DNA of 64,000 bases from Actinomycetota bacterium (GTDB lineage Bacteria; Actinomycetota; Thermoleophilia; Solirubrobacterales; Solirubrobacteraceae), in assembly GCA_005884115.1 (NCBI GenBank), contig VAXW01000003.1:62001-126000 (forward strand), read 5' to 3'. The notes below the pieces were generated by a model. That model had not been told where the DNA came from and searched no databases. It was given only the letters and a program-made list of their open reading frames with translations. A program made the translations under genes and the position numbers. Positions 8,261 through 37,045 of the stretch are shown here, piece by piece (position 1 is the first letter of the stretch; each line of letters begins with the position of its first letter).

Positions 8261-8334
8261 CGGGGAGTGGCGCAGTCTGGTAGCGCACCCGGCTGGGGGC
8301 CGGGCGGTCGCTGGTTCGAATCCAGTCTCCCCGA
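8261..8334 (+). tRNA. tRNA-Pro (anticodon GGG), integration target of the island
   Basis: The acceptor stem CGGGGAG/CTCCCCG, the anticodon loop CTGGGGG with stem CCCGG/CCGGG, and the T-arm CTGGTTCGAATCCAG give a complete 74-base tRNA without encoded CCA. A second copy of the 3' half lies at 35878-35924. The two share an identical 22-bp block covering the anticodon arm, then differ at three positions of the T-arm. Two of these differences are compensatory (CTGG/CCAG here, CAGG/CCTG there). This fits an element that integrated in the anticodon region and replaced the 3' half of the gene. Confidence 0.95.
8290..8311 (+). other. attL core (22-bp identity block)
   Basis: This block covers the 5' base of the anticodon stem to the variable loop of tRNA-Pro and is identical to 35878-35899. 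Crossover inside the anticodon arm is typical of tyrosine integrases that use tRNA genes. Confidence 0.8.
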
Positions 8335-8400
8335 TATCCCGAAAGGCCTCCAAATGGGCCGGCTCGAGGACGTGCGACCGCCGGCCGGGGGAGGCTCTAT

Positions 8401-9044: not shown

Positions 9045-9911
9045 TCATGCCCGCCTAGCGGTCGCGAGGACGACTCGGTTTTCGGTCCCATACGCTTGCG
9101 CCTCGACCTCGAATGGCCCAAGGCGCTCCCCTCCAGGCAGAAGCTCACGGCCGCGTTCGCGCCGCCAACCGCGCCAGGCGCAGCTGAACACGCTCTCGTC
9201 GGCGGCGCTCTTGAAGCGCGGCACGTAGGTATCCACACCGGCGACAGAGCCGTAACGCACTCGTAGCCGCTGGGGAACATCCTCGCCGCGCCGAAGTGCC
9301 GGGCGATCCGCCGGCTTGTGCGACCACTCGAAAACGAGGAACGCGCCGATCCCGGTATAGAGGGACGCGAGCCGGTTTCCGGCAGCCTGGAGACTGACGT
9401 CGGCATCGCTGGCAAGCCGTTCGACGCCTTGGAGGCCCTCGTCCAGGCTGTAAAGGTCCTCGACGAGGTCGCGCGGCATGAGTAAAGTCGCCGCACCAAG
9501 GTCGCACAGGTACTCCTCCTCGGCGTTTCGTGCGTTCTGCCCGGGCTGCTTAGTGTCCAGCCGGTAGCGCGTTTCCTTCCGAAAACCGGGAAACGCGAGA
9601 TGGATGAGCTCGTGTGCGCACGTGAAGCGCTGCCGCGCAGAGCGGTCGTCGTCGTTGAGGTCCATGACGAGTTGGCCGTCTAGGTCGGCGTAGATGCGGC
9701 CCGCGAAGTCGTGTGGAGCGTGACGCGACTCGACCCCCTGGACTGAAGCGACCAGCTCGACGTCGACCGGCAACCTGTCCTGCCCGGCTTGCCGGCGCAA
9801 CGCACCGGCGTGGCGCTCGATGATCTCCTCGGGCGCGCGACCACGATGGCGCTCGATCAGCTTGATTACGAGCGGCTCGCTCCAGGGTCTACTTCTCGTC
9901 GGTCTCGGCAT
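9045..9911 (-). CDS. ImmA/IrrE-family metallopeptidase
   Basis: The protein has 288 residues. The zinc-binding site is CAHELIHLAF (HExxH) at about residues 98-107, with the downstream acidic ligand in EEEYLCDLGAATLLMP, as in the ImmA/IrrE family. These peptidases cleave partner repressors to switch on mobile-element or stress genes. The start overlaps the end of the XRE repressor gene by 23 bases, the classic co-translated repressor/anti-repressor pair. The C-terminal 100 residues are not recognisable and may sense the signal. Confidence 0.92.
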   Translation of the reverse strand: MPRPTRSRPWSEPLVIKLIERHRGRAPEEIIERHAGALRRQAGQDRLPVDVELVASVQGVESRHAPHDFAGRIYADLDGQLVMDLNDDDRSARQRFTCAHELIHLAFPGFRKETRYRLDTKQPGQNARNAEEEYLCDLGAATLLMPRDLVEDLYSLDEGLQGVERLASDADVSLQAAGNRLASLYTGIGAFLVFEWSHKPADRPALRRGEDVPQRLRVRYGSVAGVDTYVPRFKSAADESVFSCAWRGWRRERGRELLPGGERLGPFEVEAQAYGTENRVVLATARRA

Positions 9912-10308
9912 CCGGATCGAGGCCTCGACTGAGGCGCAGCGAGTTGTAGATGTACGCCCAGCGCTCGGTGGAACGCGGCTCGTCGCCTTTGCGAAACTTG
10001 ATGCTAGCCAGGGTCCGCACCTCGGCGCTGCTCAGCGCTTGCTCATCGGCAAAAGCGCGCAGAAGGGGCGCAACGTGGAGCTCGCCTTGATCGACGCGAT
10101 AGCGCGGTCCGCCGAGCAGGTCGGCGACGGTGACATCAAGTGCCTCGGCGAGCCGGCCCAAAAGCTCCAGGGACGGATTGCTGGGCTCGTTCTCGAGGCG
10201 CACCAGGTACGGCTTGGAAATCCCACTCGCGTCGGCGAGCTGCGCAAGCGACATCGCGGCCTTTTCACGCTCGCGGCGGAGACGCTCTCCGAACTGCTCG
10301 GCTGGCAT
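9889..10308 (-). CDS. XRE-family helix-turn-helix regulator paired with ImmA
   Basis: An ATG at 10308 gives 139 residues beginning MPAEQFGERLRREREKAAMS. The helix-turn-helix is LAQLADASGISKPYLVRLEN, typical of the XRE/Cro-cI family. The frame is open further upstream, but the family begins here. The C-terminal half probably contains the site cleaved by the partner ImmA protein. The gene is divergent from the nurA-herA operon across a 267-bp spacer, so it may control both its own promoter and that operon; the second part is inference. Confidence 0.88.
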   Translation of the reverse strand: MPAEQFGERLRREREKAAMSLAQLADASGISKPYLVRLENEPSNPSLELLGRLAEALDVTVADLLGGPRYRVDQGELHVAPLLRAFADEQALSSAEVRTLASIKFRKGDEPRSTERWAYIYNSLRLSRGLDPDAETDEK

Positions 10309-10575
10309 CTGCGGGATCTTAGGTCGGCAAACGGCGTCAAAGAAAACGCAAACTGCAAGCAACCGACATTCCGGTATTGTCTGGTACCATGATTCCCGAC
10401 TATGATAGACCACCTGTGAACACCGAACTCCGACTCTTGGCCAGCCGCGGAGGAACGGCATGAGCGTTCGATCGGGAATCTGCCGCCACTGGTCTCGGTC
10501 AGGCGTCGAGGTCGAGCTCAAACTGGCTCCAGGCGGTTTAAGGTAGAGGGAACAAGAGGGGGAGGTACTTAAGAA
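10309..10575. promoter_or_regulatory. Divergent control region between xre and nurA
   Basis: This 267-bp spacer separates the regulator from the divergent repair operon. It contains an AT-richer patch at about 10330-10410, including the repeated ATGAT in CATGATTCCCGACTATGAT (10388-10406 approximately), a reasonable place for a repressor operator. A purine-rich GGGGGAGG at 10557-10564 precedes the GTG start of nurA by 11 bases and is its likely ribosome-binding site. I could not define -10/-35 boxes convincingly. Confidence 0.4.
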
Positions 10576-11535
10576 GTGGCGCCTGAGGTCTTCGTCGAGG
10601 AGTGGCAGGCCCAGTACGGGTCGCCGATGCTGATCGCGGGCGAAGACCTGCCCGGCGGGACGGTCGAGCTTGCCGAGCAGCTGCCCGCCGACGGCGGTTT
10701 CACGATCCGCCCCGCAACCGCCACCGACCCGGGGTCGGTCGCGTTCGTCGATGGCGTTCGCCGCGGCGACGCGCACCTTTACGTGCGCGACGACGACGTG
10801 TTCGCACACGGCGTCGCCGGCGCGCACGCGCGCGGTGCCGCGCTATGCGACGGCGAGGCGCGCATCGATCATGTGCGGGTGGCGCGCATGATCATCTGGG
10901 GAGGCGGCCAGCAGGTGCCGGTGCCGCAGCTGGTTGGAGGTTGGCAATGGCAGGTGGCCTCGATCCACGACAACGACGCCGACGCGCCGCTGCGCGAGCT
11001 GCAGAACCGCATGCGCCAGGCGGAGGCCGAGCTCGCTGAGCGGCTCGCGGCCGAGGGCTGGCTGGTGGTGGCTGACGGGCCGCTCAGCTTCGTGCGCTCG
11101 CGTGACCTGCCCGTTTGCGGCTACGTGAAGACCCACCACCGGCCGCTGTTGCCGCCAGAGCTGCACCGTCGCGTGCCGGAGCTTGGCGTGGGCGACCGCA
11201 CCCCTCTGTTCGCGATGGGGCGCGAGCGCTACTCCTGCTACACGCGCATCGCCGCCGGCGCCGACCACGCCAGCCCCTGGCATGCGGTCGCCCGGCTCGA
11301 GTTCCCGCAGAGCGCCGGGCTCGAGGCGGCACATGTGACCGCGGACAAGGTGACCTGCATGCTGCCGCGCTATGCGGGGATCCCGCACACGGATCCCCGC
11401 GCGCCCCAGAACCTGCAGCCGATTGCCGCGCTGGAGCGCCAGCTGCGCCACCGGCTCGGCCATCCCGGACTTTCTACCCGCGCGGTGCGTGGAGCCGCGC
11501 GCAACCTGGCTCTCTCCACCGGAAGGAACCCCTGA
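10576..11535 (+). CDS. nurA: NurA-like 5'-3' nuclease
   Basis: The protein has 319 residues from a GTG preceded by GGGGGAGG. It fits the NurA nuclease family. An early acidic motif follows a beta strand (VAFVDGVRRG, about residues 55-64), a central acidic strand reads LVVADGPLSFVR, and the C-terminal segment is HTDPRAPQNLQPIAALERQL. NurA partners the HerA translocase to resect DNA ends. The next gene, which starts on the last base of this stop codon (TGATG), is a HerA-type ATPase, which strongly supports the call. Confidence 0.82.
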   Translation: MAPEVFVEEWQAQYGSPMLIAGEDLPGGTVELAEQLPADGGFTIRPATATDPGSVAFVDGVRRGDAHLYVRDDDVFAHGVAGAHARGAALCDGEARIDHVRVARMIIWGGGQQVPVPQLVGGWQWQVASIHDNDADAPLRELQNRMRQAEAELAERLAAEGWLVVADGPLSFVRSRDLPVCGYVKTHHRPLLPPELHRRVPELGVGDRTPLFAMGRERYSCYTRIAAGADHASPWHAVARLEFPQSAGLEAAHVTADKVTCMLPRYAGIPHTDPRAPQNLQPIAALERQLRHRLGHPGLSTRAVRGAARNLALSTGRNP

Positions 11536-13337
11536 TGACGAACCCGGTTCAGACCCCCACCCGCCTCGGCTTGGTCGACGGCGCTGTGCCGGCCACCTCC
11601 AGTCGCTTCTTCTGCGTGCTCGATGACGACGCAGTAGTGCAGCTCGACGACCTGATCTGCGTCAGCCAGCGGCTGCCGAACGGCGAGGACGTGACCCACT
11701 ACGGGATCGTGGTGGAGGAGTCGGGCCAGATCGAGGGCGCCGAGTGGGCCTCCGACACGCAGCGCATCGCCGACCAGACCATGCCGGGCCAGCCGATCCG
11801 GCGCGCCGAGGTGCAGATCTTGAGGACCGTGCCCGAGCTGTGGCTGGCGCCGCGCTCCGGCGCCGAAGTGCACGCTGCGCGTGGCGCCGAGCGCGAGCGG
11901 GCGCTATTCGCCGACCAGATGACCGAGCGGTTGCCGGTCGGGCTCGACCAGGCCGGTGAGCCGATCTGGGCCGACTTCTCATTCATGAACGGCGAGAAGG
12001 GCGGGCACGTGTCGATCACCGGTATCTCCGGCGTGGCCACCAAGACCTCCTATGCCACCTTCCTGCTCTACCAGCTGTTCGAGACCGAGCATGGCCGCCG
12101 ACTGCTGGGCCAGCAGGCGCCGAACGCGCGCGCGCTCGTGTTCAACGTGAAGGGCGAGGATCTGATGCATCTGGACCGGCCGAACCGTCGCTTCGCTGCC
12201 GATCTGGAGGCGCAGGCGGGGTGGGCCGCGATGGGCGTCGATCAGCCGGGCCAGTTCCGGTCCGTGCGTATCTACGCGCCGCGCTCGCGCTCCGCGCAAC
12301 AGCACGCTACGGCCGCCGACGTGCAGAGCCGGCCGCATAACGAGGTGCGGGTGTACGGCTGGACGCCGTTCGAGTTCATCCGCGACGGGCTGCTGCGCTT
12401 CTGCTTCACCGAGGAGGAGGACCGCCGGACCCAGGTCGGCTTCATAGAGCAGCGGGTGCGCGTGCAGCTGGCGCGCCACTGCTACCTGCTCGAGCACGGC
12501 GACGGCGCGGTGGTGATCGACGATCCGCCGCAGGGCACCTCTTACAACTTCGAGCGCATCTCGCTGGCTGGCCGGCCGGAGCGCAGCGCGGGCGGAGGCA
12601 CCGTAATCCGCGACTTCTCCGACCTGGCCGACTTCCTGGTTACCGTTTGCGACCCGGCTGACGGGGACCCGGCCTGGCAGGCCGGCGTGCAGCAGGGCAC
12701 GCTCGCCGCCTTCGTTCGCCGCGTGCTCGCGCTGCAGCCGCGCATGGGCCATCTGGTGGCGACCGGCGCCGAGCGTGTAGCGCTCGACGAGCACGTCACC
12801 GTGGTCGACATCCACACGCTGCACGACGCCGCGCAGCGGTTCGTGGTCGGCGCGCTGCTGGACGCGGTCTTCGCCGAGAAGCAGGGCGCCGGCCGCGAGC
12901 CGCTCCGCTTCATCGTGCTCGACGAGCTGAACAAGTACGCCCCGCGCCAAGGCCAGAGCCCGCTGAAGGAGCTACTGGTCGACATCGCCGAGCGCGGCCG
13001 CTCGCTCGGCGTGCTCTTGATCGGCGCACAGCAGTCGGCGCACGACATTGATGCGGCGATCTTCCGCAACGCCGCGCTGAAGGTCGCCGGCCGGCTCGAC
13101 GCCAGCGAGGCCTCCGAGTACCGCTTCCTCTCTGCCGAGCTGCGCGAGCGCGCCGCGCGCTTCCTCCCGGGCACGATGGTGCTGGATCAGCCGCTGATCC
13201 CGGCACCGATCCCGCTTCGCTTCCCGTTCCCCTCGTACGCGACCAACGTGGCCGAGGCCGGCGCGGCCGACCCGCAGGCTGCGGCCGCGGCCACCGACGA
13301 TGCCTTCGACCGGGCCGCTGGACACTTTGCCGGCTGA
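11535..13337 (+). CDS. herA: HerA-type DNA translocase ATPase
   Basis: The protein has 600 residues. An N-terminal barrel-like HAS domain (about 1-130) is followed by a RecA-fold ATPase domain. The Walker A region is GISGVATKTS at about residues 161-171, which has Thr in place of the Gly before the Lys, a departure from the usual HerA GxxGxGKS. Walker B is LRFIVLDELNKYAP (about 455-468), and an arginine-finger-like FRNAALKVAGRLD lies near 515. HerA forms a hexameric translocase that drives NurA. It overlaps nurA and sbcD by one base each, implying co-translation. Confidence 0.88.
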   Translation: MTNPVQTPTRLGLVDGAVPATSSRFFCVLDDDAVVQLDDLICVSQRLPNGEDVTHYGIVVEESGQIEGAEWASDTQRIADQTMPGQPIRRAEVQILRTVPELWLAPRSGAEVHAARGAERERALFADQMTERLPVGLDQAGEPIWADFSFMNGEKGGHVSITGISGVATKTSYATFLLYQLFETEHGRRLLGQQAPNARALVFNVKGEDLMHLDRPNRRFAADLEAQAGWAAMGVDQPGQFRSVRIYAPRSRSAQQHATAADVQSRPHNEVRVYGWTPFEFIRDGLLRFCFTEEEDRRTQVGFIEQRVRVQLARHCYLLEHGDGAVVIDDPPQGTSYNFERISLAGRPERSAGGGTVIRDFSDLADFLVTVCDPADGDPAWQAGVQQGTLAAFVRRVLALQPRMGHLVATGAERVALDEHVTVVDIHTLHDAAQRFVVGALLDAVFAEKQGAGREPLRFIVLDELNKYAPRQGQSPLKELLVDIAERGRSLGVLLIGAQQSAHDIDAAIFRNAALKVAGRLDASEASEYRFLSAELRERAARFLPGTMVLDQPLIPAPIPLRFPFPSYATNVAEAGAADPQAAAAATDDAFDRAAGHFAG

Positions 13338-14557
13338 TGCGCGTCCTCCACGTCTCCGACTGGCACCTCGGCATCACCACCTACCGGCAGGACCGGCGTC
13401 CCGACCTGGAGGAGGTGCTGGAGCAGACGCTCGCGCACGCGCGCGAGTGCAAGCCGCATCTAGTGATCCACACCGGCGACCTCTTCCATCATGTGCGACC
13501 CGGGCTCGAAGATGTCCGGCTCGCCTGCGAGACCCTCAGACGGCTCAGCGAGCTGGCTCCGGTGGTCGTCGTCTGCGGTAATCACGACTCGCCCGCGCAG
13601 CTGCGCTTCCTTGACGAGTTCGTCTTCCCCGGCGAGCGCCTGCACTTCGTTGATGTGCCGCGCCATCCGCGTGACGGCGGCATCCTCGAGTTCGAGGCGG
13701 GCAGAGAGCGCGCGCGGCTGGCGGCGATCCCGTTCATCTCCGGCGAGCGGATGGTCGAGGTGTTCGAGGATCCCAAGACCTGGATGACCGGCTACGCCGA
13801 CCGCGTGCGCCGCATCCAGGAGGCGCTAGGCGAGGGACTGCGTGACGGCTACCAGGGCGAGCGCGACATCCTGTTGTTCGCCGCGCACCTGCACGTGACC
13901 GGCGCACAGGTGACCCGCTCGGAGCGGCCGCTGCATGTCTCCGACTCCTACGCAGCGCACGCGGAGGCGATCCCGAGCGTCAGCTATGCCGCTTTCGGCC
14001 ACATCCACAAGCCGCAGCGCCTGCCCGGCAACCAGCTCGGCTGGTACGCCGGCTCGCCGGTCGCGCTCGACTTCGGCGAGGAGCACGACCAGAAGGTCAT
14101 GCTGCTGATCGAGGCGGCGCCCGGCCGGCCGGCGCAGGTCACAGATCTGCCTTACACAACAACCCGCCCGCTGCGGCGTGTGACAGGTACGCTCGAGGAG
14201 TTACTGGCGTTGACCGACATCGGCCACTCGCTCTGCCTGGCCACCGTCACCACCGAGGAGCCGACTTCAGGGCTGGCGGACTCACTACGGGCGGCGTGGC
14301 CGGACTGCACGCTGCTAGAGGTCGTGGAGGACTGCGCGGCGCGGCGCGTAGAGGTGCTGAGCGCCGATCACGCCGAGCGCGACGAGGAGGCGGAGCGTCC
14401 GATGGCCGAGCTCTTCGCCGACTATCTCGCCGAGACCGGCACCCAGATCGCGACCCGTGGCGAGGCGCTGGCCGCCTTCGAGAGGCTGCACGCTGCAGTC
14501 GAGGCCAACGCCGCTCCTGAGTTCCCCGAGCTTGCGGCCGCGGAGGTCACCCTTTGA
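13337..14557 (+). CDS. sbcD: SbcD/Mre11-type DNA exonuclease subunit
   Basis: The protein has 406 residues. All Mre11-family phosphoesterase motifs are visible: SDWHLG at residues 7-12, HTGDLF, CGNHDSP, AAHLHVTG and FGHIHKPQ, which together bind two Mn ions. SbcD with SbcC cleaves hairpins and blocked DNA ends. The start overlaps the herA stop and the stop overlaps the TTG start of sbcC. A usual-length capping domain follows the nuclease domain. Confidence 0.95.
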   Translation: MRVLHVSDWHLGITTYRQDRRPDLEEVLEQTLAHARECKPHLVIHTGDLFHHVRPGLEDVRLACETLRRLSELAPVVVVCGNHDSPAQLRFLDEFVFPGERLHFVDVPRHPRDGGILEFEAGRERARLAAIPFISGERMVEVFEDPKTWMTGYADRVRRIQEALGEGLRDGYQGERDILLFAAHLHVTGAQVTRSERPLHVSDSYAAHAEAIPSVSYAAFGHIHKPQRLPGNQLGWYAGSPVALDFGEEHDQKVMLLIEAAPGRPAQVTDLPYTTTRPLRRVTGTLEELLALTDIGHSLCLATVTTEEPTSGLADSLRAAWPDCTLLEVVEDCAARRVEVLSADHAERDEEAERPMAELFADYLAETGTQIATRGEALAAFERLHAAVEANAAPEFPELAAAEVTL

Positions 14558-17500
14558 GGCCGCTCGAGCTGCGTCTGAAGGGGCTGCGCTCGTGGCGCAA
14601 CGAGCAGACGCTCGACTTCTCGGACCTGGCGCTGTTCGCCATCGTCGGCGACACCGGGGCGGGCAAGAGCTCATTACTGGAGGCGATCGTCTACGCGCTC
14701 TATAACGCGTCGACGTTCTCTGGGCGCGACGTGCGCGCGCTGATCTCGGACGGTCAGCAGACGATGCACGTCTCGCTCGACTTCGAGGCGGACGGCAAGC
14801 GCTGGCGTGTCACGCGCTCCACCTCGCGCGGCAGCTACCCGCCCTCGACCCACCAGCTGGTCTGCCTCTCCGACAACGAAGAGCCGCCGCTTGAGCGCGA
14901 GAGCGCCGTGACACATCGGATCGAAGAGCTGATCGGGCTCGACTACAAGGGCTTCACGAGCGCGGTGCTTCTGCCGCAGGGCCGCTTCCAGACGCTGCTG
15001 ACGGCCACCGACAGCGAGCGCACCGCGATCCTGAAGGGCATCTTTCGCCTCGACGAGCTGGTCAGGGTGCGGGACTCGGCCGATGCGCTGCGGCGTGCTT
15101 TGGAGTCGCCGCTGGCCGAGTTGACCCGTCGGCGCTCGGCTCTGCTGCCCGACCCGTCGGCGACCGCCGCCGAGCAGGCCTCTGCCCTCGCACAGGTACG
15201 CGCTGCAGCGAAGCAGGTCCGTTCGCTGCGCGACCGTTGGGAGTCCGCGCAGCAGGAGGCGAGCGCGCGCGCGACCGAGGCTGAGCAGGCGGGGGCGGAC
15301 GCCGGTAAGCTCCGCCGCCAGCAGCAGGCGGTCCCGGCGCTTGACGATGCCATGAGCGCCGAGGCCGAGCTGGCCGCCGAAGCCGAGCCGCTCGCCCGCG
15401 AGCGCGAGACCCAGCACGCCGCCCACTACCAGGCCCGCGGTGCGCTCGCGAAGGCTGCCGACGCCGGCGAGGGGGTCGACCAGCTGAGCGAGGCGTGTCC
15501 GCGGCTTGACGACGCGGCCGAGCAGCTGCCGCAGCTGCAAACCGCCATCGAGCGGATCGGCGGCGAGCTCGACCAGCATGCACAGCGCGAGGCCGAGCTT
15601 GCGGCCGAGGCCGAAGCTATCGCTCAGGCGCGTGCGGAGCTTGACGCAGCGGCCGAGGCGTGCACGCAGCTTGAAAGCGCAGCCGAGTTGGCCGAGGGAC
15701 AGCACCAGGCGGCGGCGACCGCGCTGGCCGCGATGCGCCGGCGCTACGAGGAAACGGACGGGTGCCGAGCCGCGCTGGCCGAGGCCGAGGAGACCGAGGC
15801 CGCAGCCGTGCGCGCAGCGGGCGAATTCGACGAGGTCGAGGCCGCCGCCAAGGCGCAGCTCGCCTCCGCGCATGAGCGCTTCGACGCCGCGCGCCGCACC
15901 GAGAGCGCCGCCGCGGCCGCCGTCGGGCTCGCCGTCGGCGACGACTGTCCCATCTGCGCGCGCGAGCTTCCCGCCGGCTTCCGCGCGCCGGCCGCGCCAG
16001 ATGTGGAGGCCGCCCATGACGCGCTGCACACGGCCGAGACCGCCAACCAGCAGGCCGCCGGCGCGGCCGCCACCGCGCGCGCCGAGGCCAACATCGCCGG
16101 CCAGCGGACGCACCGGACGCGCCAAGCGCTCGGTGATGCCGAGGAGGCGCTTCGGGCTGCCGAGGCGACGTTCGCGGTCACCGTGCTCGGCAAACCGGAT
16201 CTGGCGACCGGCGATGACGAGCTGCTGGCTCCGCTCGCGGAGGCGGCGCGCGCGGCGCGCAAGGCGGTTAGCGACGCGGCGACCGCCGCCGCCGGCAGCG
16301 AGGCCGCGTTAATGGCGCGCGACGCGCAGCTTGCATCGTCGCGCACGACGCAGCAGGAGACCGCCGCGCGGCTCGCCCGCGAGCAGGCCGAGACCGACCT
16401 AGCGATTGGCCGCCACCGGACGGTGCTAGCGGCGCTGCCGCCGCGCTTCCGCCCCGCCGGCGAGGCTGGCGACGAGCTGGCGGCCGCCCGCGATGCTGCC
16501 AGCGCGCGCCTGGCAGAGCTGCGCACGCTGCGCGACCAGCAGGAGGCCGCCGTGGCCGCGCTCGCGCAACTCGACGCCGCCGAGCGCACGCTGGCCGAGC
16601 AGCGCGAGGCCCGGGTGCTCGGCCCGCGCCGCCAGGCCGCCGCCGCCGTGAGCGCGCTACGGACCCTGCTTGACAACCTGGATCCGCCGCTCACGAGCCC
16701 CGAGCCGCCGGCTGAGCATGCGGCGCTTGCCGACCACGCGGCCTGGATCGTCAAGACGCTCAGCCTCGCCGAGACAGCCGCGGGCGGGCTGGAGACCAAG
16801 CAGCGCGAGCTGACCGAGGCCGCCAAGGCGGCCGAGGCACATGTCGCGGCGCTGTTGGAGGAGGCCGATCAGCTCGATCCGGAGCACGCGATCAGCGACG
16901 CCGCCGGCTTACGCGACGCGCTCGAGGATTGGGCTGGCCGCGAACGTACGGCCGACACACTGCGCCAGCAGGCAGAGGGCCAGATCGAGCCCGCGCAGAA
17001 GCTTGACAACGAGATCAAAACCGTTGAGCGCCTTCGTCGCGCGTGCGACGAAGTGGCCAGACTCCTAGCTGATGGAAAGTTCGTCGGCTGGCTGGTCGGG
17101 CGCCGCCAGCGCGCGCTGCTGGAGGTTGCCTCCGACCGCTTCCGCGAGATCTCGGGTGACCGTTACGGGTTCGCGGAGGACTTCCAGGTGGTGGACCGCC
17201 GCACCGGCCAGCCGCGTTCGGCGAAGACGCTGTCAGGCGGCGAGACCTTCCAGGCGAGCCTGGCACTCGCGCTCGGCATGGTCGAGCTGGCGGCGCGTGG
17301 TGGTGGCCGGATCGACTCGATCTATCTCGACGAGGGCTTCGGCTCGCTTGACCCGAACGCGCTCGACGACGCGCTGTCGGCGCTTGAGCGGCGCGCGCAG
17401 TCCGGGCAGCTCATCGGCGTCATCTCGCACGTGGCCGCGGTTGCCGAGCGGCTGGAGACCGTGCTTCGCGTTAGCACCGGCAGCGAGGGCAGTCGCCTGG

Positions 17501-17571
17501 AGCGGCTCGGCGCGTCTGCACGCGCGCAGATGTTGGAGGCGGAGCTGGCCGAGGCGCAGGCAGCGGCGTGA
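14554..17571 (+). CDS. sbcC: SbcC/Rad50-type ATPase subunit
   Basis: A TTG start overlapping the sbcD stop gives 1,005 residues. Walker A is GDTGAGKS at residues 32-39. A long Ala/Glu-rich coiled coil surrounds a zinc hook CPIC at about residue 467-470. The ABC signature is LSGGE at about residue 893, and Walker B with the D-loop is YLDEGFGSLD near 925. Rad50-type ATPases gate the Mre11/SbcD nuclease at DNA ends. The coiled coil is unusually Ala-rich but intact. It overlaps the next gene by 4 bases. Confidence 0.95.
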   Translation: MRPLELRLKGLRSWRNEQTLDFSDLALFAIVGDTGAGKSSLLEAIVYALYNASTFSGRDVRALISDGQQTMHVSLDFEADGKRWRVTRSTSRGSYPPSTHQLVCLSDNEEPPLERESAVTHRIEELIGLDYKGFTSAVLLPQGRFQTLLTATDSERTAILKGIFRLDELVRVRDSADALRRALESPLAELTRRRSALLPDPSATAAEQASALAQVRAAAKQVRSLRDRWESAQQEASARATEAEQAGADAGKLRRQQQAVPALDDAMSAEAELAAEAEPLARERETQHAAHYQARGALAKAADAGEGVDQLSEACPRLDDAAEQLPQLQTAIERIGGELDQHAQREAELAAEAEAIAQARAELDAAAEACTQLESAAELAEGQHQAAATALAAMRRRYEETDGCRAALAEAEETEAAAVRAAGEFDEVEAAAKAQLASAHERFDAARRTESAAAAAVGLAVGDDCPICARELPAGFRAPAAPDVEAAHDALHTAETANQQAAGAAATARAEANIAGQRTHRTRQALGDAEEALRAAEATFAVTVLGKPDLATGDDELLAPLAEAARAARKAVSDAATAAAGSEAALMARDAQLASSRTTQQETAARLAREQAETDLAIGRHRTVLAALPPRFRPAGEAGDELAAARDAASARLAELRTLRDQQEAAVAALAQLDAAERTLAEQREARVLGPRRQAAAAVSALRTLLDNLDPPLTSPEPPAEHAALADHAAWIVKTLSLAETAAGGLETKQRELTEAAKAAEAHVAALLEEADQLDPEHAISDAAGLRDALEDWAGRERTADTLRQQAEGQIEPAQKLDNEIKTVERLRRACDEVARLLADGKFVGWLVGRRQRALLEVASDRFREISGDRYGFAEDFQVVDRRTGQPRSAKTLSGGETFQASLALALGMVELAARGGGRIDSIYLDEGFGSLDPNALDDALSALERRAQSGQLIGVISHVAAVAERLETVLRVSTGSEGSRLERLGASARAQMLEAELAEAQAAA

Positions 17572-18176
17572 TCGAGTGGTTCGAACGGCTCGGTGACGTG
17601 CCGGGCATCACCTGGCAGCCGCGCGCCGAGGCCGACTCGCGCCTGATCGGGGCTCGTCCGGTCGTCCGCGAGAAGCGCGTCGAAGGCGATTCCGGCATCG
17701 GCTGGGTAGACGCCCAGGGGCAGCCGCTCGCCGACGAGTGGGTGTGGCGCGACAGCCCGGTGACGCTGGCGATCGAGGGCTACTTCGAGGCGCCGGCCGA
17801 GCGGCGGCTGAGACTGGCGCTGGCCGCGCTCGAGGTGCCGGGCACGCGTGCCGACTTCAGCGAAGCGCTGGGTTACGCGCAACAGGCCGTCGAGCAGCAG
17901 GCACGACCCGATTACACACTGCTGGAGTCGCTGCTCTCGGCGCACGTCCAGCTGGTGCTGGCCGATCCGAGCGGCGTGGTCGGCGAGCGCCGCCAGCTTG
18001 ACCGCGCCGGCCAGCCGCTGGCCCTGCTGCTGAATCTGTATCAGCGCGAGGGCTTCCTGCGCGAGGCAGCGGGGGTCGAGCGGCTGCTGTCAAGCCTGCC
18101 GGCCGAGATGCGCCCGCGCTACCTCGCCGAGCCAGGCCCGGCTGCGCTGATCGATGCTCTTGAGGAGCTTCGGTGA
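17568..18176 (+). CDS. Unknown protein of the nurA-herA-sbcDC operon (202 aa)
   Basis: A GTG start overlaps the sbcC stop (GTGA) and the stop overlaps the next start in the same way, so this is certainly translated with the operon. I do not recognise the family. The protein is soluble and acidic, begins VIEWFERLGDVPGITW, has a middle region rich in Ala/Leu helices (about residues 60-190), and contains no cysteine pair, Walker motif or membrane segment. Its fixed place between the Rad50-like ATPase and a large unknown protein suggests a subunit or adaptor of the complex. Confidence 0.85.
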   Translation: MIEWFERLGDVPGITWQPRAEADSRLIGARPVVREKRVEGDSGIGWVDAQGQPLADEWVWRDSPVTLAIEGYFEAPAERRLRLALAALEVPGTRADFSEALGYAQQAVEQQARPDYTLLESLLSAHVQLVLADPSGVVGERRQLDRAGQPLALLLNLYQREGFLREAAGVERLLSSLPAEMRPRYLAEPGPAALIDALEELR

Positions 18177-20248
18177 GCGCGGGTCGCGATCTGATCGAGG
18201 CGCCCGCGGGCCACTGGGTGGAGCTTCACCGCGCCAGGCGCCCCGCGGCGCTCGGTGCCCTCGAGGCCGCACTTGGGCGCCTGCTGGCGAGCGTGCTCGG
18301 GGGGAAGCAGGCAGTGCGGCTCTCGTCCGGGTCACAGGGCGCCGAGGGTCCGAGCCGTGTGGAGCTTGTGGGGCTCAGAGAGGCTGATCGCGCCATCTTC
18401 GCTACGCGGCTGTCCATGCCCGAGAGCGGCCCGCGACACGTGCCGGCCGGTGGGCTCGATCTGGCCGCGATCCGGCTGCCCGAGCTGGTGCGGGCACAGC
18501 CGTACTGGACCATGTCCGCGGCTGGCTTTCGCAACTATCTCGAGTTCACCACGCTCGACGCGGTGATCTGCCAGCGGTTCTTGGCGCCGCTGCTTGGCGA
18601 TCTCGCCTACATCTTTCGGCTGCGGGCCGGCGTGGGCCCGAAGAGTGCCAAGGGGCGCGGCCACCATCTGGCGCGTTGCGCTCAGGCACACCAGGCACTC
18701 GGGCTGGCTTCCGATCAGCTGCAGGCGCTACTCGATCCCGAGCTGAGCGCGGAACAGGTTGCGGCCGCGCGCAGCGCGCTGATCACCGGATGGGCAGCGT
18801 ACCCCGAGGATGTCGGCGAACGCGCGATGGCACTCTTCTCCGGGGAGCTCGCGCAGGCCTACTACGCAAAGGCGCGCAAGGACGGCTCGGTCGAGGCGGC
18901 GCGCGTGCTGACCACCAACGTCGTGCCGCTGCTGGAAATCACGCTCGGCAACTGGCCGACGCTGGTTGCCTACCTGGGCGAGACGCAGGCGCCCGCCGAC
19001 GCAACCCCAGTCGCGACGCCCGAGGTGACGCTGCCGGCGGAGCCGCCGCCGGAGGTCGCGGAGCGGCTTGCCGCGCTGCGCGACTGGTGGGCGATGTACG
19101 ACGCGAGTCACGCTACGCAGCGTGCCGGCATGGAGCCACTCGACGATCTGGTCCCGAAGCGCTGGGATTACGGACTGCCGGACGAGGACGGTGGCGGTCG
19201 GCGCCGTGGACTGGAGCGCCGCGCGCTGGCGCCGGAGCTCTTATTGTCTATTGCGTCGCTCTGGGGCAAGCAGGTCTTGGTTCGCCATCCGGACATGCTG
19301 GTGTGCGAGCCGCGGCCGCTCAGCGTGCTCGCGGAGCTCGTGCAGCCGGCGGCCGGTTTCTGGGACGAGCTCTCGCTGACCGCCTGGTTCCTGTGCTTCG
19401 GTGCATATTCGCGGCACACGCTCGATCAGCTCGAGGAGTTTCAGCATGACACGCGCGACGTGCTCGCCGAGCTTGGAGCACCGGTCAATCCCGGAATCTA
19501 CGGCGAGCTGCTGGCGCTCGCCGAGCGCCACCCGTTCCTGATCGAGCCGGCAGGCCTCGCCATCGGCGTCAGCTTTGAGATCAACCTCGACGACGCGGGT
19601 GCGCCGACCGTCTCGTCTCACATGGTCCAGCCCGAGCGGCGCTCGCACCCGCAGGTGTTTGAGGCGCTGCGCGACATCATCACCCGCCACCGGCGCGCCT
19701 GGCTTGCCCAGCACCTAGACGGATATCTCGACCACCTCTGGCGACGCGACCTAGGCGCGGGCGCCGAGGTCTACTGGAAGCGCTATCGCGGGCGCGGCAA
19801 GGCGCCGACAGTCAAGCAGGCGCTGCCTGATGTGGCCGGACCGGCGCAGCGCTGGTTCGGCGCCGACCACGGTAGGCTCTCGCGACTGCTCGCACTCGAC
19901 GGCCCGATCACCGAGTCGCCGGTACCCTCGCCGCGCGCGCTGCCCGACGATCTGCCCGCGCTCCAGCACGAGGTCGCCGAGCAGCTGCTTAGCGCCGCCA
20001 AGCCAAGCGACGACGGGCGCGACCGGCGCTGGGACGTTGAGCGCTTCGCCCAGCAGGCCGCGACCGTGCTGGTCGCCTGGCAGGCAACCGGCTCCGCGCC
20101 GCCGCGCAGCGCCGTCTTGGGGTCCGGCTACCGCTTCGTGATCGACCAGACCTTCGGCAGCGACCTCGACGACGCCTACCGGCTGCTGGTGGCGGCGATC
20201 CACGGCGCGCTTGAGCGCCGCGGCCATCCGGCTGCGGCCAACATCTAG
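18173..20248 (+). CDS. Large unknown protein of the nurA-herA-sbcDC operon (691 aa)
   Basis: A GTG start overlapping the previous stop gives 691 residues of no family I can name. It is soluble and mostly helical, with a proline/threonine-rich linker at about residues 270-295 that divides it into two parts. Conserved-looking patches include MSAAGFRNYLEFTTLD in the first half and HPFLIEPAGLAIGVSFEINL in the second. No nuclease, ATPase or zinc motif is evident. Its codon and base use match the rest of the operon, so the two unknowns belong to the system rather than being later additions. Confidence 0.85.
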   Translation: MSAGRDLIEAPAGHWVELHRARRPAALGALEAALGRLLASVLGGKQAVRLSSGSQGAEGPSRVELVGLREADRAIFATRLSMPESGPRHVPAGGLDLAAIRLPELVRAQPYWTMSAAGFRNYLEFTTLDAVICQRFLAPLLGDLAYIFRLRAGVGPKSAKGRGHHLARCAQAHQALGLASDQLQALLDPELSAEQVAAARSALITGWAAYPEDVGERAMALFSGELAQAYYAKARKDGSVEAARVLTTNVVPLLEITLGNWPTLVAYLGETQAPADATPVATPEVTLPAEPPPEVAERLAALRDWWAMYDASHATQRAGMEPLDDLVPKRWDYGLPDEDGGGRRRGLERRALAPELLLSIASLWGKQVLVRHPDMLVCEPRPLSVLAELVQPAAGFWDELSLTAWFLCFGAYSRHTLDQLEEFQHDTRDVLAELGAPVNPGIYGELLALAERHPFLIEPAGLAIGVSFEINLDDAGAPTVSSHMVQPERRSHPQVFEALRDIITRHRRAWLAQHLDGYLDHLWRRDLGAGAEVYWKRYRGRGKAPTVKQALPDVAGPAQRWFGADHGRLSRLLALDGPITESPVPSPRALPDDLPALQHEVAEQLLSAAKPSDDGRDRRWDVERFAQQAATVLVAWQATGSAPPRSAVLGSGYRFVIDQTFGSDLDDAYRLLVAAIHGALERRGHPAAANI

Positions 20249-20286
20249 CGCTGGAGCGAGTTACATACCGCGGTAGATTGCCGCGT

Positions 20287-20739
20287 ATGGGCTGGCGTGA
20301 CTGGCTCGGTCGCAGCTCGAAAACGGTGGTGGCGCCACGGAGCATGCTTACGCCGTTCCTCTTAGAGGGTGAGGAGTTAGTGGAAGTGGTCGGCGAGTCC
20401 TTTTACCAGCCGGCCCTGTTGCGCCAGTGCCGTGCGCGCAGGGGCGATCCGGTGCGGTTTCCTTGTCGCGCCTATCTGGTCGCGCAACCGGACAACCCGT
20501 ACGACCGCAACGCGGTTGCCGTGCAGATCGGCGGGCAGCTGGTCGGCCATCTCTCGCGCAGCGAGGCACCGCGCTGGCTGCCGCTGGTGCAGCAGCTCGC
20601 CGCGCGCGGTTACGCCGCCAGCTGTGAGGCGATGATCGCCGGGCGCGGTCGCGAGGGGGAGACTGACCACCTCGGTGTCTTCCTGCATCTGCCCACGCCG
20701 ACCGAGGCGCACGCGCAGGTCGCCAAACTCGCGACATGA
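20287..20739 (+). CDS. HIRAN-domain protein
   Basis: From ATG 20287 the protein has 150 residues. The HIRAN domain spans about residues 35-125, with VVGESFYQPALL at its start, then AQPDNPYDRNAVAV and VGHLSRSEAPRW, the hallmark of the family. HIRAN domains bind 3' DNA ends or damaged DNA, as in HLTF. The gene follows the previous stop by 38 bases in the same direction and is probably the last gene of the operon. A TTG at 20278 is a possible earlier start. Confidence 0.88.
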   Translation: MGWRDWLGRSSKTVVAPRSMLTPFLLEGEELVEVVGESFYQPALLRQCRARRGDPVRFPCRAYLVAQPDNPYDRNAVAVQIGGQLVGHLSRSEAPRWLPLVQQLAARGYAASCEAMIAGRGREGETDHLGVFLHLPTPTEAHAQVAKLAT

Positions 20740-20852: not shown

Positions 20853-22256
20853 TCAGGATGAGACCGGGTGGGCAGTCGGCTGGGTTGCTGCGGCCGCGAC
20901 CTGTCCTAGGTATTCAGTTAGCACGCACTCGAAATCGCGCGTAGCGTCGATCGTGCCCGTGAGAGAGTGCGCTGCCTCATGCAGCAATGTTCCGGCGTAA
21001 TCGGCGAACGACTGAAGCTGCCGGCGAGCGATGACTATGGATCGCAAGTCGCTATCCCAAACACCGTTGGTGGTGTCCAAGCCGACGCGCATCGTCTCCG
21101 AGATCTGTACGGGCAGCGCGACCGCCTCATCCGACTCGATTAGGCTCAGAATCTCTCGCGTTCGGTCGAAGACAGCCCGTTCCGCTGGCTGAAGGGCCTC
21201 GGGAGCGACGAACTCGTACTGGAAGCTCTCGTTGTACTCCTGCACAAAGCCCTGGAAGGTCCGCAGGTCGTAGTCGCCAGCTTCGTACTGCGCGTCCAGC
21301 TTTGCTCGATGGTCCGCGCTCACGATGACGACCTCATATCCATCTCGGCGCATGTGATCGATGACATTGGGCGCCTCGTGAATCTCGTCCTCAGTGACGA
21401 AGGTGACTCGTGAACGCGCGCTTAGCAGCGTGTAGGCGCGGTTGGCGATCTCAGTCCACTGCATCTCGTCACACTGTGCCCCTCGTGCGCGTGCGCCGAC
21501 CTGGTCCGCCAGCGCCTCGACCACCTGCTCGGATTCTGCACTGCGCAATATGGCCTTTACGCGATCCGTGTAGGTAGTGCGTCCGACATTGAGCCGCTCA
21601 CGGTTCAGTCGCTTGCGCATCGCCGGCGTCAGATCGGTGATGTTGTACGAAAACAGGAAGTTTGGCTCCTCGTTGGCGAGCACCCCTGTGATGTAAACGC
21701 GAGCTGCCTCGGCTCCGCGCTCCAGGATCTCGCCGTATGTAGTCGACTCGATGCAACGCTCCTCGGCGAAGCGCAGGAACATCGCCTTCGCAGCCGCCAC
21801 CTTCCCTCCAGTGACGCCCTGAAGTTCGACGTCGGTGCCGAGGCCGTTCGGCGCCGAGTCGAAGTCCACATGAAGCGTCTTGATTCCTCCGAAGTCATGC
21901 TTGCTGGCCTCCACCAGGCGGAAGGTGCCGTGGGCCGATCTGATCACAACATCGATACCGCGACGGTGAAATGTCGCCAGCGCATCCTTCAGACCGACTC
22001 CAAACTTCCCGATCACACCCTGGGGCGCTTGCAGCTTCTCCTGGCTTTCATTAAGGGTGAAGTGCTCGATCTGCAAACCACGCCCGAAATCGCGCACATG
22101 CCACGAACCCTGTTGCTCGTAGATCTCGATGTCCCCGGTTCCCGTGAGCGTTTGCTCGTCGAGCGCGTTCGCGATTACCTCGCGAATCGCGTGCTCCACC
22201 TCCCAGTGCTCGAGCACCTCCTCAATGTTCAGGTCAAAGAGGCTCGTCGTTGCCAT
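20853..22256 (-). CDS. GHKL (Hsp90-like) ATPase with C-terminal HExxH domain
   Basis: The protein has 467 residues. The N-terminal half has the GHKL ATP-binding boxes: REVIANALDEQ at about residues 25-35, VRDFGRGL near 54, and GKFGVGLKDALA near 83. The C-terminal part carries LLHEAAHSLTG followed by an acidic residue pair (DFECVLTEYLG), which looks like a zinc metallopeptidase site. This combination in one chain is unusual. The gene is monocistronic, convergent with the HIRAN gene, and of visibly lower GC than the repair operon, pointing to separate acquisition. Its role is unknown; a defence effector is possible. Confidence 0.8.
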   Translation of the reverse strand: MATTSLFDLNIEEVLEHWEVEHAIREVIANALDEQTLTGTGDIEIYEQQGSWHVRDFGRGLQIEHFTLNESQEKLQAPQGVIGKFGVGLKDALATFHRRGIDVVIRSAHGTFRLVEASKHDFGGIKTLHVDFDSAPNGLGTDVELQGVTGGKVAAAKAMFLRFAEERCIESTTYGEILERGAEAARVYITGVLANEEPNFLFSYNITDLTPAMRKRLNRERLNVGRTTYTDRVKAILRSAESEQVVEALADQVGARARGAQCDEMQWTEIANRAYTLLSARSRVTFVTEDEIHEAPNVIDHMRRDGYEVVIVSADHRAKLDAQYEAGDYDLRTFQGFVQEYNESFQYEFVAPEALQPAERAVFDRTREILSLIESDEAVALPVQISETMRVGLDTTNGVWDSDLRSIVIARRQLQSFADYAGTLLHEAAHSLTGTIDATRDFECVLTEYLGQVAAAATQPTAHPVSS

Positions 22257-26752: not shown

Positions 26753-28057
26753 ATGGCGGAGAGGAGGCGCGCCGGCACGGGCCACCTCTACGAGCGCGTC
26801 GGCGCCTACTACGGGCGCTGGCGCACGCCCGACGGCCGCTTGCTGAATCGCAAGGTGGGGGAGATGAGGAGCTCGGGCGAGCGCAACGGCCTCACGCGCG
26901 CACAGGCAGAGCGCGAGTTCAGGCGGATGCAGGAAGAGGAGGAGCGCACGCCGCGACGCACGCGAGGGGCGGAGAGTCCGGCTGTGGCGGCCGCTGCCGA
27001 TTCGCTGCGGCGCAAGCTGAAGCTGAGTGGCGCGCGGCCTTCCTACCTCGAGAACTGCGAGTCGATGCAGCGGGTGCACATCGCGCCACGGGTCGGCGCG
27101 CTGCCGGTCAGCGAGCTCACGACCGTCCACGTCGAAGCGCTCGCGAGTGCGATGCTCGAGCTGGGGCGCTCGCCCAAGACCGTGCGCAACACGCTGTCCT
27201 TCCTGCACTCGGTTCTTGAGCATGCGATCGACCGCGGCTGGACCCGCGAGAATCCGGTCCGTCGCGTCACGCGACCGGGTCGTCGCCGCCAGGGCGAGAT
27301 CGAGCCCGACCTCCGGTTCCTCACTCTCGCGGAGCTCGAGGCGGTCCTGCGCACGCTCCCCGACGAGGTCGTCCGTCGTACTCCAGCACCGACGCGAAAG
27401 GGACGTCGTGGACCGGCCCCGCCGCCACCACCGGATGTGCTCGGCCCAGCGCTGCGCGTCCTGGTGCTCACGGCCGCCATGACCGGCCTGCGCCAGTCCG
27501 AGCTGCTCGGCCTACGTTGGCGTGACGTCGACTGGACGGCGCAGCGCATCCGCGTACGCAACGTCTACGTGCGGGGCGAGCACTCCAGCGAGGGCAAGTC
27601 CGACCTCTCGACGCGTCGCTCGGTGCCGCTCGCCGATCGCCTCGCGGGCGAGCTGGACCGCCTTTCGCAGCGCACGCCCTACGCCGCGGATGACGATCTC
27701 GTCTTTGCCCACCCGCAGAGTGGCCGCCCGCTCGACCGCGCGAAGGTCACGAGGCGCTTCAAGGCAGCGTGTGGCGAGGCCAACGTGCGCGTCGTGAGGT
27801 TCCACGACCTGCGCCACACGTTCGCTACCCGCCTCGCAGCGTCGGGGCAACCGCTCCGGACGATTCAGGAGTTCCTCGGACACGCCGACTCCACGACCAC
27901 ACAGATCTATGCCCACTACGCGCCGTCGGAGCACGAGGTAGAGATGGTGAACGATGCGTTCGCCGTCAGCGACGAGGTGCATGCATCGCCGGAGCTCACC
28001 GGTACCACACCCAAAAGGACACGCCCTGGAGCAAAGACGACCGGACAACGGGGTTAA
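26753..28057 (+). CDS. int: Tyrosine-type site-specific integrase
   Basis: The protein has 434 residues. An N-terminal arm-binding region (about 1-75) is followed by a SAM-like core-binding domain (about 80-175) and the catalytic domain. The catalytic Arg is in TGLRQSELLGLRW near residue 246, the HxxR box is FHDLRHTFATRLA near 350, and the LGHADSTTTQIYAHY box holds the second His and the nucleophilic Tyr near 387. It is expected to recombine the 22-bp tRNA-Pro core. A His/Pro-rich insertion is absent; a Pro-rich loop (APPPPPDV-like) occurs around residue 220. Confidence 0.95.
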   Translation: MAERRRAGTGHLYERVGAYYGRWRTPDGRLLNRKVGEMRSSGERNGLTRAQAEREFRRMQEEEERTPRRTRGAESPAVAAAADSLRRKLKLSGARPSYLENCESMQRVHIAPRVGALPVSELTTVHVEALASAMLELGRSPKTVRNTLSFLHSVLEHAIDRGWTRENPVRRVTRPGRRRQGEIEPDLRFLTLAELEAVLRTLPDEVVRRTPAPTRKGRRGPAPPPPPDVLGPALRVLVLTAAMTGLRQSELLGLRWRDVDWTAQRIRVRNVYVRGEHSSEGKSDLSTRRSVPLADRLAGELDRLSQRTPYAADDDLVFAHPQSGRPLDRAKVTRRFKAACGEANVRVVRFHDLRHTFATRLAASGQPLRTIQEFLGHADSTTTQIYAHYAPSEHEVEMVNDAFAVSDEVHASPELTGTTPKRTRPGAKTTGQRG

Positions 28058-34345: not shown

Positions 34346-35494
34346 CTACGCGGGGAGCATCCTGAGGAAATCGTCCTCTGCTAGTAGCTCGATGGGATAG
34401 CCCGCTGTACGTAGCTCGGCAGCCCTGAGCATCTTGTTGGAGTGTTCGCCGTCGTTGACCTTGTAGGCATCCTGCATCCCGAGAACCAGGTAGTGGACCT
34501 TCTTCGACACGCCGCTGGCCACGCCCCCGCCCGCGTTGACGACGAGCTGCGCAGCTTCCGCGCGAGTTAGGCCGCATGAGAGTGTGCCGGTGAAGACGAC
34601 GATCCGGTTGTTGAAGTCGCTGTCCTCGGGGATGGTGTCGATGGTCGGCGTCAGGTCTGCGAGACGGGGGCGAGGCATTCCGTGCGGCGTCCACGAGGTT
34701 GCCGTTAGGCGGCCCGCCAGCATGCCCATAGCTTTGCTTGCGTCCTCGACGGTGGTGGCACCCGCAACCCCGCAGCAGGCGATCGCGAGTTCTGCCGCGG
34801 TCGCGGCGTCCGCTCCGGGCTCATGGTGCTCGAACTCAAGACCGCACTCGCTCGCCAGGTCCGGGAGCCGGTATGAGAGTCTCCCTGGCCACGCACGGCG
34901 CGCGAGAGCGCAAGTGCAGTAGTAGGTGAGCTCCGGCCAGTCGCTCGCTGTGGCCCAGAGTGAGTGGCGGAGAACGCTGAGGTCGAAGGGGGCGTAGTGC
35001 GCGACAACCGGGCGCTCATCGATCGATTGGAGGACCGCCGGCCACACCTTCGACATCGGCTGGCTGTTGGCTGTCATCTCTGGCGTGATCCCGTGGATCG
35101 CGATGTTGAACTCTTGGTACGTGTTGCCCGGAGGCCGGATGAGCCACCTACCGACCCTCGTGACGCGGCCAGCCTCAACGGCTGCGACAGCCACAGCGCA
35201 GGCACTGTCGTGCGAGGAGGTCGCTGTCTCGAAGTCGAGGGCCACAAACCCACCCGCACCCAGCTGCCGGCCTGCGTCGAGGTCGGCTGAGATGTTGCGG
35301 ACCGCCTCTAGCGGAGGGTAAGACGGGATCGCAAGGACCGGCCTTGAGGAGACAACGGGGCCGTCTACGACGACCCCGACCCGTACCTCGATGTTGCGCG
35401 GAGAGACCCGGTTCTCGGTCTCCGGATGGTCCGCCGCCGCCGACTCCCGCTCAAGGCCGTCGCTGCCGGCCTCGCGCTTGCGTCGCCACAGCAT
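34346..35494 (-). CDS. DnaQ-like 3'-5' exonuclease with C-terminal BRCT domain
   Basis: The protein has 382 residues. The DEDD exonuclease motifs are FVALDFETAT at about residue 85, IHGITPEM, VVAHYAPFDLSVL and the final HEPGADAATAAELA near 228. The C-terminal BRCT domain spans about 290-380 (FNNRIVVFTGTLSCGLTRAEAAQLV, GVSKKVHYLVLG). A similar pairing occurs in DNA polymerase III epsilon-like and CRISPR/defence-associated exonucleases. It is the last element gene before the right end, reading inward. Confidence 0.9.
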   Translation of the reverse strand: MLWRRKREAGSDGLERESAAADHPETENRVSPRNIEVRVGVVVDGPVVSSRPVLAIPSYPPLEAVRNISADLDAGRQLGAGGFVALDFETATSSHDSACAVAVAAVEAGRVTRVGRWLIRPPGNTYQEFNIAIHGITPEMTANSQPMSKVWPAVLQSIDERPVVAHYAPFDLSVLRHSLWATASDWPELTYYCTCALARRAWPGRLSYRLPDLASECGLEFEHHEPGADAATAAELAIACCGVAGATTVEDASKAMGMLAGRLTATSWTPHGMPRPRLADLTPTIDTIPEDSDFNNRIVVFTGTLSCGLTRAEAAQLVVNAGGGVASGVSKKVHYLVLGMQDAYKVNDGEHSNKMLRAAELRTAGYPIELLAEDDFLRMLPA

Positions 35495-35877: not shown

Positions 35878-35924
35878 CGGGCTGGGGGCCGGGCGGTCGC
35901 AGGTTCAAATCCTGTCTCCCCGAT
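35878..35924 (+). repeat. attR: displaced 3' half of tRNA-Pro(GGG)
   Basis: Bases 35878-35899 are identical to the anticodon arm of the tRNA-Pro at 8261-8334. The rest matches its T-arm and 3' acceptor except at three positions, two of which preserve pairing. No 5' half precedes it. It is best read as the original 3' end of the host gene, displaced when the element inserted. Confidence 0.85.
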
Positions 35925-36983: not shown

Positions 36984-37045
36984 GGGGCCACGCACTCCCT
37001 CCCGCTGGGGCCGGGCGGTTGCAGGTTCGATTCCTGCACGGCCCA
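36984..37045 (+). other. tRNA-like remnant lacking a D-arm
   Basis: The T-arm GCAGGTTCGATTCCTGC and an acceptor 3' strand ACGGCCCA are intact, and a Pro-like anticodon arm CCCG-CTGGGGC-CGGG precedes them. The 5' acceptor GGGGCC is only partly complementary and the D-arm is missing. Total length is about 62 bases. It is most likely a decayed or recombined tRNA fragment. Confidence 0.4.

Follow-up and report, generated by a model that had tools for sequence, protein, structure and literature searches.

The locus considered here raises the question of what two proteins of no recognisable family contribute to an operon that otherwise encodes a complete set of DNA end-resection enzymes, and what such an operon does on a mobile element. 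It lies in a stretch of 64,000 nucleotides, hereafter the window, of contig VAXW01000003.1 (positions 62,001 to 126,000) in assembly GCA_005884115.1 of an Actinomycetota bacterium of the family Solirubrobacteraceae. Six forward-strand genes, coding for NurA (10576-11535), HerA (11535-13337), SbcD (13337-14557), SbcC (14554-17571) and the two proteins in question, UnkA (17568-18176; 202 amino acids) and UnkB (18173-20248; 691 amino acids), overlap successively by one, one, four, four and four bases, and a gene for a HIRAN-domain protein follows 38 bases further, as the original prediction had described. UnkA and UnkB form a real two-gene module, which recurs in other genomes and on Streptomyces plasmids beside differing DNA-processing partners.

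UnkA and UnkB as a two-gene module

Neither protein showed a significant match in Pfam, NCBIfam, PADLOC, PHROGs or the sequences of the PDB, bearing out their earlier description as belonging to no recognisable family. Relatives of UnkA are, furthermore, encoded in genomes G028, G654, G671, G582 and G394 and on Streptomyces plasmids, and those of UnkB in the same places, giving new families of eight and seven members, respectively. In leave-one-out searches each UnkA was recovered by the profile of the other seven (E-value: ≤4e-18), while the long UnkB members were recovered with E-values of 5e-194 to 5.7e-124 and the short, 140 amino acid form of G028 with 4.7e-8; these profiles matched nothing outside the family among 1139 called proteins. 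Eight of the ten loci found were opened and provide the gene contexts described below, the other two being Streptomyces records with the same scores. In all eight, UnkA is followed by UnkB, either directly or with a helicase gene between them, and the gene junctions are overlapping in six of the seven tabulated loci, G394 being the exception and the Streptomyces plasmid locus L133 falling outside this tabulation.

With own copies counted, UnkB occurs in 5/349 genomes of the class, 2/396 of the phylum and 1/14 of the family of G394, as well as in 4/72,556 plasmid records. A single-sequence UnkA search recovered only the window's own protein from the 396 genomes of the phylum, and a single-sequence UnkB scan of genome contigs confirmed nothing; such searches miss members, since the UnkB profile later found G394 in the same 396-genome sample. 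A match to UnkA in G703 (E-value: 3.2e-4) was rejected; it falls in a repeat protein that appears TPR-like by eye, and suggests at most a TPR-like nature for the C-terminus of UnkA. The newness of UnkA and UnkB rests on the non-matches in Pfam, NCBIfam, PADLOC and PHROGs and on a limited reading of titles, abstract openings and open literature, in which no publication was found on this four-gene bacterial operon with extra proteins or on UnkA-UnkB.

Changing partners of the module

The neighbours of UnkA-UnkB across the eight loci comprise NurA-HerA-SbcDC (two loci), an Mre11-like/Rad50-like pair (one), a nuclease-helicase (four) and a PLD protein (one). The module follows SbcC in the window, while in G028 UnkA and a short UnkB precede NurA-HerA-SbcD-SbcC. 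This short form (L006, 8168-8590) aligns to residues 19-114 of the window's UnkB and, weakly (E-value: 0.002), to residues 655-690, as if the middle of the protein had been lost. The G394 locus encodes UnkA, UnkB, an Mre11-like phosphoesterase (Metallophos; E-value: 6e-12) and a Rad50-like ATPase (AAA_27; E-value: 1.8e-9), the latter two of which we take to be YhaO- and YhaN-like. The order UnkA, nuclease-helicase, UnkB is shared by G654, G582 and two Streptomyces plasmids, the four nuclease-helicases being 59-84% identical pairwise; those of G654 and L133 match ResIII, Helicase_C and DUF559 above the Pfam cut-offs and MTES_1575 just below. An SMC-like ATPase and a large helicase-nuclease are additionally encoded upstream in G654. 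In G671, UnkA-UnkB is convergent with the gene of a protein matching PLD weakly (E-value: 4.6e-5, below cut-off), near a two-gene pair (L124, 10515-11389) that by eye is presumably RES/Xre toxin-antitoxin-like. By eye, the stretches of G671, G582 and G394 contain integrase-like genes, and matches to defence systems near the module include GajA/GajB in L134, a DUF262 protein in L133 and a type II methyltransferase in L135. Furthermore, the UnkB of L133 ends in a TerD domain (E-value: 5.3e-24), with which the tail of the L134 UnkB shares 69% identity; the Pfam and PHROGs matches of the Streptomyces UnkB proteins cover this TerD end only.

A HerA tree of 81 rows places the window's HerA in a 28-row side (support 99) and that of G028 in a 15-row group (support 100) opposite. 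This is a quick tree in which both end branches are longish, so that the exact places are unsure while the split is supported. As the two HerA proteins fall on different supported sides, two separate joinings of UnkA-UnkB to the NurA-HerA-SbcDC core are probable, besides one to a different Mre11/Rad50-like pair. A functional link is best supported by this repeated joining to end-processing machines.

Integrity of the core enzymes

The window's HerA and NurA match those of Deinococcus radiodurans (7f6d_B, E-value: 6.5e-101; 7f6d_H, E-value: 3.6e-12), although neither has a significant Pfam match. HerA is of the FtsK-HerA kind, with the Walker A sequence GISGVATKTS, and is coupled to NurA by a one-base overlap. 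SbcD, an Mre11-type nuclease with the phosphoesterase motifs (Metallophos; E-value: 1.1e-16), exceeds the cut-off of TIGR00619 (E-value: 3.8e-31). SbcC combines Rad50-type ATPase heads (AAA_23; E-value: 1.5e-20) with a CxxC hook (CPIC) and matches TIGR00618 (E-value: 2.6e-57), yet at 194.5 bits remains below the cut-off of 478.5. The original prediction of a NurA-HerA plus Mre11-Rad50 set made of bacterial-type proteins thus agrees with these matches, NurA and HerA being Deinococcus-type and SbcC and SbcD closest to bacterial models.

Of the positions that at least 93% of the aligned relatives have in common, the window's proteins retain nearly all (NurA: 34/36; HerA: 132/136; SbcD: 35/36; SbcC: 51/52), and the four enzymes therefore look intact. 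By alignment to the D. radiodurans protein (drHerA), the window's HerA retains K170 and T171 of Walker A and D463 and E464 of Walker B, residues which are named for HerA in a passage of PMC9960219, while SbcC retains C465 and C468 together with the Walker and signature residues.

The HIRAN-domain protein (20287-20739, forward strand), whose gene starts at an ATG at 20287 with a TTG present at 20278, is a borderline member of its family (PF08797; E-value: 1.9e-5; 24.8 bits against a cut-off of 24.7). It had been counted as a component of the set, but of 180 loci searched by tblastn a single one has the gene, namely L130, belonging to the window's own genome; the protein is probably incidental and is discarded here as a part of the system. 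Adjoining the block, an opposite-strand gene (20853-22256) codes for a protein whose beginning weakly matches HSP90-like ATPases (E-value: 4.1e-4), with an insignificant SprT-like match towards its end (0.21).

Distribution of the NurA-HerA-SbcD-SbcC core

When 84,980 genomes were scanned with a HerA alignment of three rows, at least 591 stretches were obtained, at least 523 of which encode HerA relatives, and the best 80 were kept. Among these 80, tblastn found NurA in 76, SbcD in 73, SbcC in 67 and all four genes in 64, several of the loci without the full set being cut by contig ends. The end-resection set was thus not rebuilt in the window, as had been supposed, and the finding contrasts with the statement in a passage of PMC9960219 that bacterial NurA-HerA is confined to a small number of bacteria, Deinococcus-Thermus among them, even if the operon serves repair. 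The original prediction had named an absence of the two unknown proteins from most related loci as grounds for refuting it, and for the core this absence is observed: the eight-member UnkA and seven-member UnkB profiles matched none of 86 further HerA loci, some of them short contigs, and a fixed six-gene system is rejected on this basis.

In some lineages the core has conserved neighbours. The block is flanked by the same gene families in L032 and in L031, L038 and L040 (titled Acidimicrobiia), while the neighbours in L136 and L137, from genomes of one genus, are 52-91% identical and identically ordered, as expected for a chromosomal operon inherited by descent. HerA is encoded in 3/61 genomes searched (the window's own, G028 and G035) and in none of the 23 other members of the genus, some of whose genomes are incomplete; across the class, 41/349 genomes gave a HerA match, only 14 of these at E<1e-50 and the rest weak and partial. 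The original prediction had set itself against a conserved core chromosomal operon, and this is what some lineages contain, but the block of the window is accessory. In G035, of the same family, NurA-HerA-SbcD-SbcC (L005, 3-5959) is followed by genes for a DrmD-like SNF2 helicase (E-value: 8.2e-87) and a type IIG restriction-methylation enzyme (E-value: 2.8e-297).

The mobile element and its divergent repressor-protease pair

The whole operon and the HIRAN gene lie within a 27.6 kb element bounded by 45-nt repeats that are 93% identical, of which the left (8291-8335, forward strand) forms the 3′ end of a tRNA-Pro gene (8261-8334) and the right is at 35880-35924 (forward strand). Together with a tyrosine integrase (26753-28057, forward strand; Phage_integrase, E-value: 4e-33), these repeats substantiate the earlier view of a tRNA-integrated element. 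Its description as full of defence-like genes is fair only in part, on the strength of a DUF4011 helicase-nuclease that is a defence candidate (29555-33790, reverse strand; PDC-S37, E-value: 1.5e-285; MTES_1575, E-value: 2e-32) and a DEDDh exonuclease (34346-35494; E-value: 1.3e-24). The element also encodes a TraD/FtsK/HerA-like ATPase (weak matches) and a Replic_Relax-like protein (E-value: 0.005, below cut-off). A query with the right flank found some match in 22/24 genomes of the genus (own included), for many barely beyond the 45-nt repeat, suggesting a favoured site. A clean empty site was not shown within the genus, both flanks being present in G011, G012, G014 and G023 only, and there on different contigs. 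Just past the right repeat lies another partial copy of the tRNA-Pro 3′ end (37007-37036; 30 nt, 90%), which may mark an older insertion.

Divergent to the operon, and within 2 kb of the left attachment repeat but 16.4 kb from the integrase, the reverse strand encodes a CapH/ImmR/DdrO-like helix-turn-helix (HTH) repressor (9889-10308; HTH_3, E-value: 3.8e-14; capH, E-value: 2.6e-12), whose start at 10308 is inferred, and an IrrE/CapP-like M78 metalloprotease (9045-9911; Peptidase_M78, E-value: 8.4e-12; capP, E-value: 9e-20), with HELIH as the HExxH motif in its translation. The 267 bases between the inferred HTH start and NurA (10309-10575) presumably hold the operator and promoter, and contain one sigma-70-like match (10377-10406) against 0.1 expected. 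As described in part of PMC13373217, CapP is activated by single-stranded DNA, to which it binds, and cleaves the repressor CapH, pairs of this kind controlling the immune operons next to them. Single-stranded DNA also activates PprI of Deinococcus, where an IrrE-type switch runs the damage response (PMC10904395, in part), and ImmR/ImmA-type switches control integrative elements, including those integrating at tRNA genes, according to a passage of PMC10233336. On sequence alone, control in the window may be of the CapH/CapP, PprI or ImmR/ImmA type.

Proposed function and alternative explanations

We suggest, at what we regard as even chances, that the window carries a mobile, damage-gated, DNA-degrading defence operon against foreign DNA, in which UnkA-UnkB serves as an interchangeable adaptor or licensing pair. 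In this scheme the HTH repressor would keep the divergent NurA operon off. When an infecting phage or incoming plasmid gives rise to single-stranded DNA or damage, the M78 protease would become active and cut the repressor. SbcC-SbcD could then find and open blocked or hairpin ends, and HerA would drive the duplex into a NurA dimer for cutting. UnkA-UnkB, which match no enzyme family, might recruit or restrain whichever nuclease is plugged in and so set where or when it acts, while the single-stranded DNA made by NurA-HerA could keep the M78 protease active. Plasmids would be a suitable target, since drNurA, the D. radiodurans protein, is reported in a passage of PMC9960219 to nick closed-circular DNA by itself.

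The gene overlaps, the retained residues, the accessory distribution, the attachment repeats with their integrase and the other defence candidates on the element are consistent with this proposal. The anti-phage or plasmid-restriction role of the original prediction accordingly stays plausible, on grounds other than those first offered: a module that swaps DNA-processing partners, an accessory HerA block and a divergent pair resembling a damage switch. We infer from these the defence role itself, as well as the control by the HTH-protease pair, the target and the role of UnkA-UnkB. Enrichment in defence islands, to which the original prediction pointed as a check, is weak at best around the window's HerA branch. 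Neighbours were scanned in 29 loci, namely the 27 tree rows that remain of 28 without the window, together with L063 and L074, chosen by HerA identity; of their 76 genes of at least 200 amino acids, 73 were scanned, three L020 genes with near-copies in L017 being excluded.

Several observations count against a defence operon. At E≤1e-15, no PADLOC model matched more than 3/73 of these neighbours, with helicase models at the top and no control set for comparison. No UnkB or HerA relative was confirmed in viral contigs, and none of UnkB was found in 50,697 phage records. The coupling in G394 is loose, with 121 bases between UnkA and UnkB and a further 226 before the Mre11-like gene, the PLD protein of G671 is merely a converging neighbour, and UnkB, folded from its sequence alone, gave an unusable model (mean predicted local distance difference test score: 43). 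No operator palindrome of at least eight bases per arm was found in 10309-10575, and HTH-M78 pairs switch mobile elements themselves, as a passage of PMC10233336 describes, so that the pair in the window may govern excision rather than the operon. Finally, the four-gene core is widespread in bacteria and has conserved chromosomal neighbours in some lineages, which fits repair.

That the operon is an accessory DNA-repair system, in which a horizontally moved, damage-induced end-resection core aids the host in surviving double-strand breaks, is the explanation to which this last point leads, and we consider it unlikely without dismissing it. The joint presence of the four genes in most of the best HerA relatives and the shared neighbours in L031, L032, L038, L040 and L136/L137 argue for it, as do the resection of ends in vitro by Deinococcus NurA-HerA (PMC9960219, in part) and the IrrE-type control of the Deinococcus damage response (PMC10904395, in part). 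Against this stand the lack of HerA in all 23 other genus genomes, incomplete as some are, the other defence candidates on the operon's own element, and the association of UnkA-UnkB elsewhere with nuclease-helicases, some of them near defence-system matches. Still more improbable in our estimation is a role in the upkeep of the element, whereby the operon would process element DNA during transfer or replication, or exclude competing elements, under an ImmR/ImmA-type switch. The HTH-M78 pair, the integrase, the weak TraD/FtsK/HerA-like ATPase and the Replic_Relax-like protein would suit such a role, and switches of this type are known on tRNA-integrating elements (PMC10233336, in part); however, inspection by eye of the 19 kb around UnkA-UnkB in G654 revealed neither an integrase nor a transfer gene, and the core often lies in loci whose chromosomal neighbours are conserved. 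Mere chance, by which UnkA-UnkB of an unrelated system was dropped behind SbcC, would account for the missing module in the 86 further HerA loci, but is very improbable given the four-base SbcC/UnkA overlap, the occurrence of the pair with NurA-HerA-SbcDC on two different HerA branches and its placement with the Mre11-like/Rad50-like pair in G394.

Returning to the proposed defence operon, a broader and more tentative generalisation, which we hold to be less likely than not, is that UnkA-UnkB constitutes a module, so far undescribed, that changes partners and directs or licenses a variety of DNA-end nucleases in immunity against mobile DNA. For some versions, the TerD fusion would hint at an input in the form of a nucleotide-like or other small molecule, while the version in the window would have taken up a complete end-resection set under a damage switch. 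For the archaeal-type end-resection set, a passage of PMC9960219 describes the bacterial role as controversial. If the proposal is true, such a set now serves as a mobile weapon under a damage switch, with two new families as its interchangeable aiming or safety parts; UnkA and UnkB would furthermore gain a testable role in the Streptomyces plasmid loci, and a way in which the host chromosome might be spared by a repair nuclease would come to light.

Comparison with known systems

The window's SbcC matches LmuB of Lamassu (E-value: 5.1e-15), while no LmuA or LmuC is among the matches listed for the ten window proteins (for SbcC, 25 of 55 are listed). In MADS systems, MAD3 and MAD8 are accompanied by methyltransferase and kinase components. 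The window resembles them in the matches of SbcC to mad3 (E-value: 6.9e-20) and of HerA to mad8 (E-value: 3.2e-16); otherwise there is only a weak mad1 match (0.047) for the HTH protein, and the block has no methyltransferase or kinase Pfam match. Both Lamassu and MADS differ from the window, where SbcC is an SbcC accompanied by SbcD. SIR2-HerA and HerA-DUF4297 systems are not represented, as no SIR2 or DUF4297 Pfam match was found among the ten proteins, and antiphage HerA models match the window's HerA only weakly (NF042944, E-value: 0.35; best PADLOC HerA, E-value: 2.4e-7).

The switches CapH+CapP, ImmR/ImmA and DdrO/PprI are paralleled by the HTH protein and HExxH-bearing M78 protease divergent to the operon, although cleavage, sensing of single-stranded DNA and the regulated promoter are only predicted in the window, and the immune nature of the operon beside its capH and capP matches is likewise inferred. 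TerD-linked systems are approached through the TerD domain of the L133 UnkB and the similar tail in L134, in contrast to the window's UnkB, which has no TerD match. With the NurA-HerA of D. radiodurans (7f6d) the window shares both proteins and the ATPase K/T and D/E residues of HerA, and differs in adding SbcD-SbcC and UnkA/UnkB and in its location on a mobile element; Mre11-Rad50 is absent from D. radiodurans according to a passage of PMC12977600. The archaeal HerA-NurA-Mre11-Rad50 operon, as described in the same source, unites the four equal functions in one operon, from which the window departs in its Deinococcus-type NurA and HerA, its SbcC and SbcD of bacterial model, its additional UnkA-UnkB module and its mobility.

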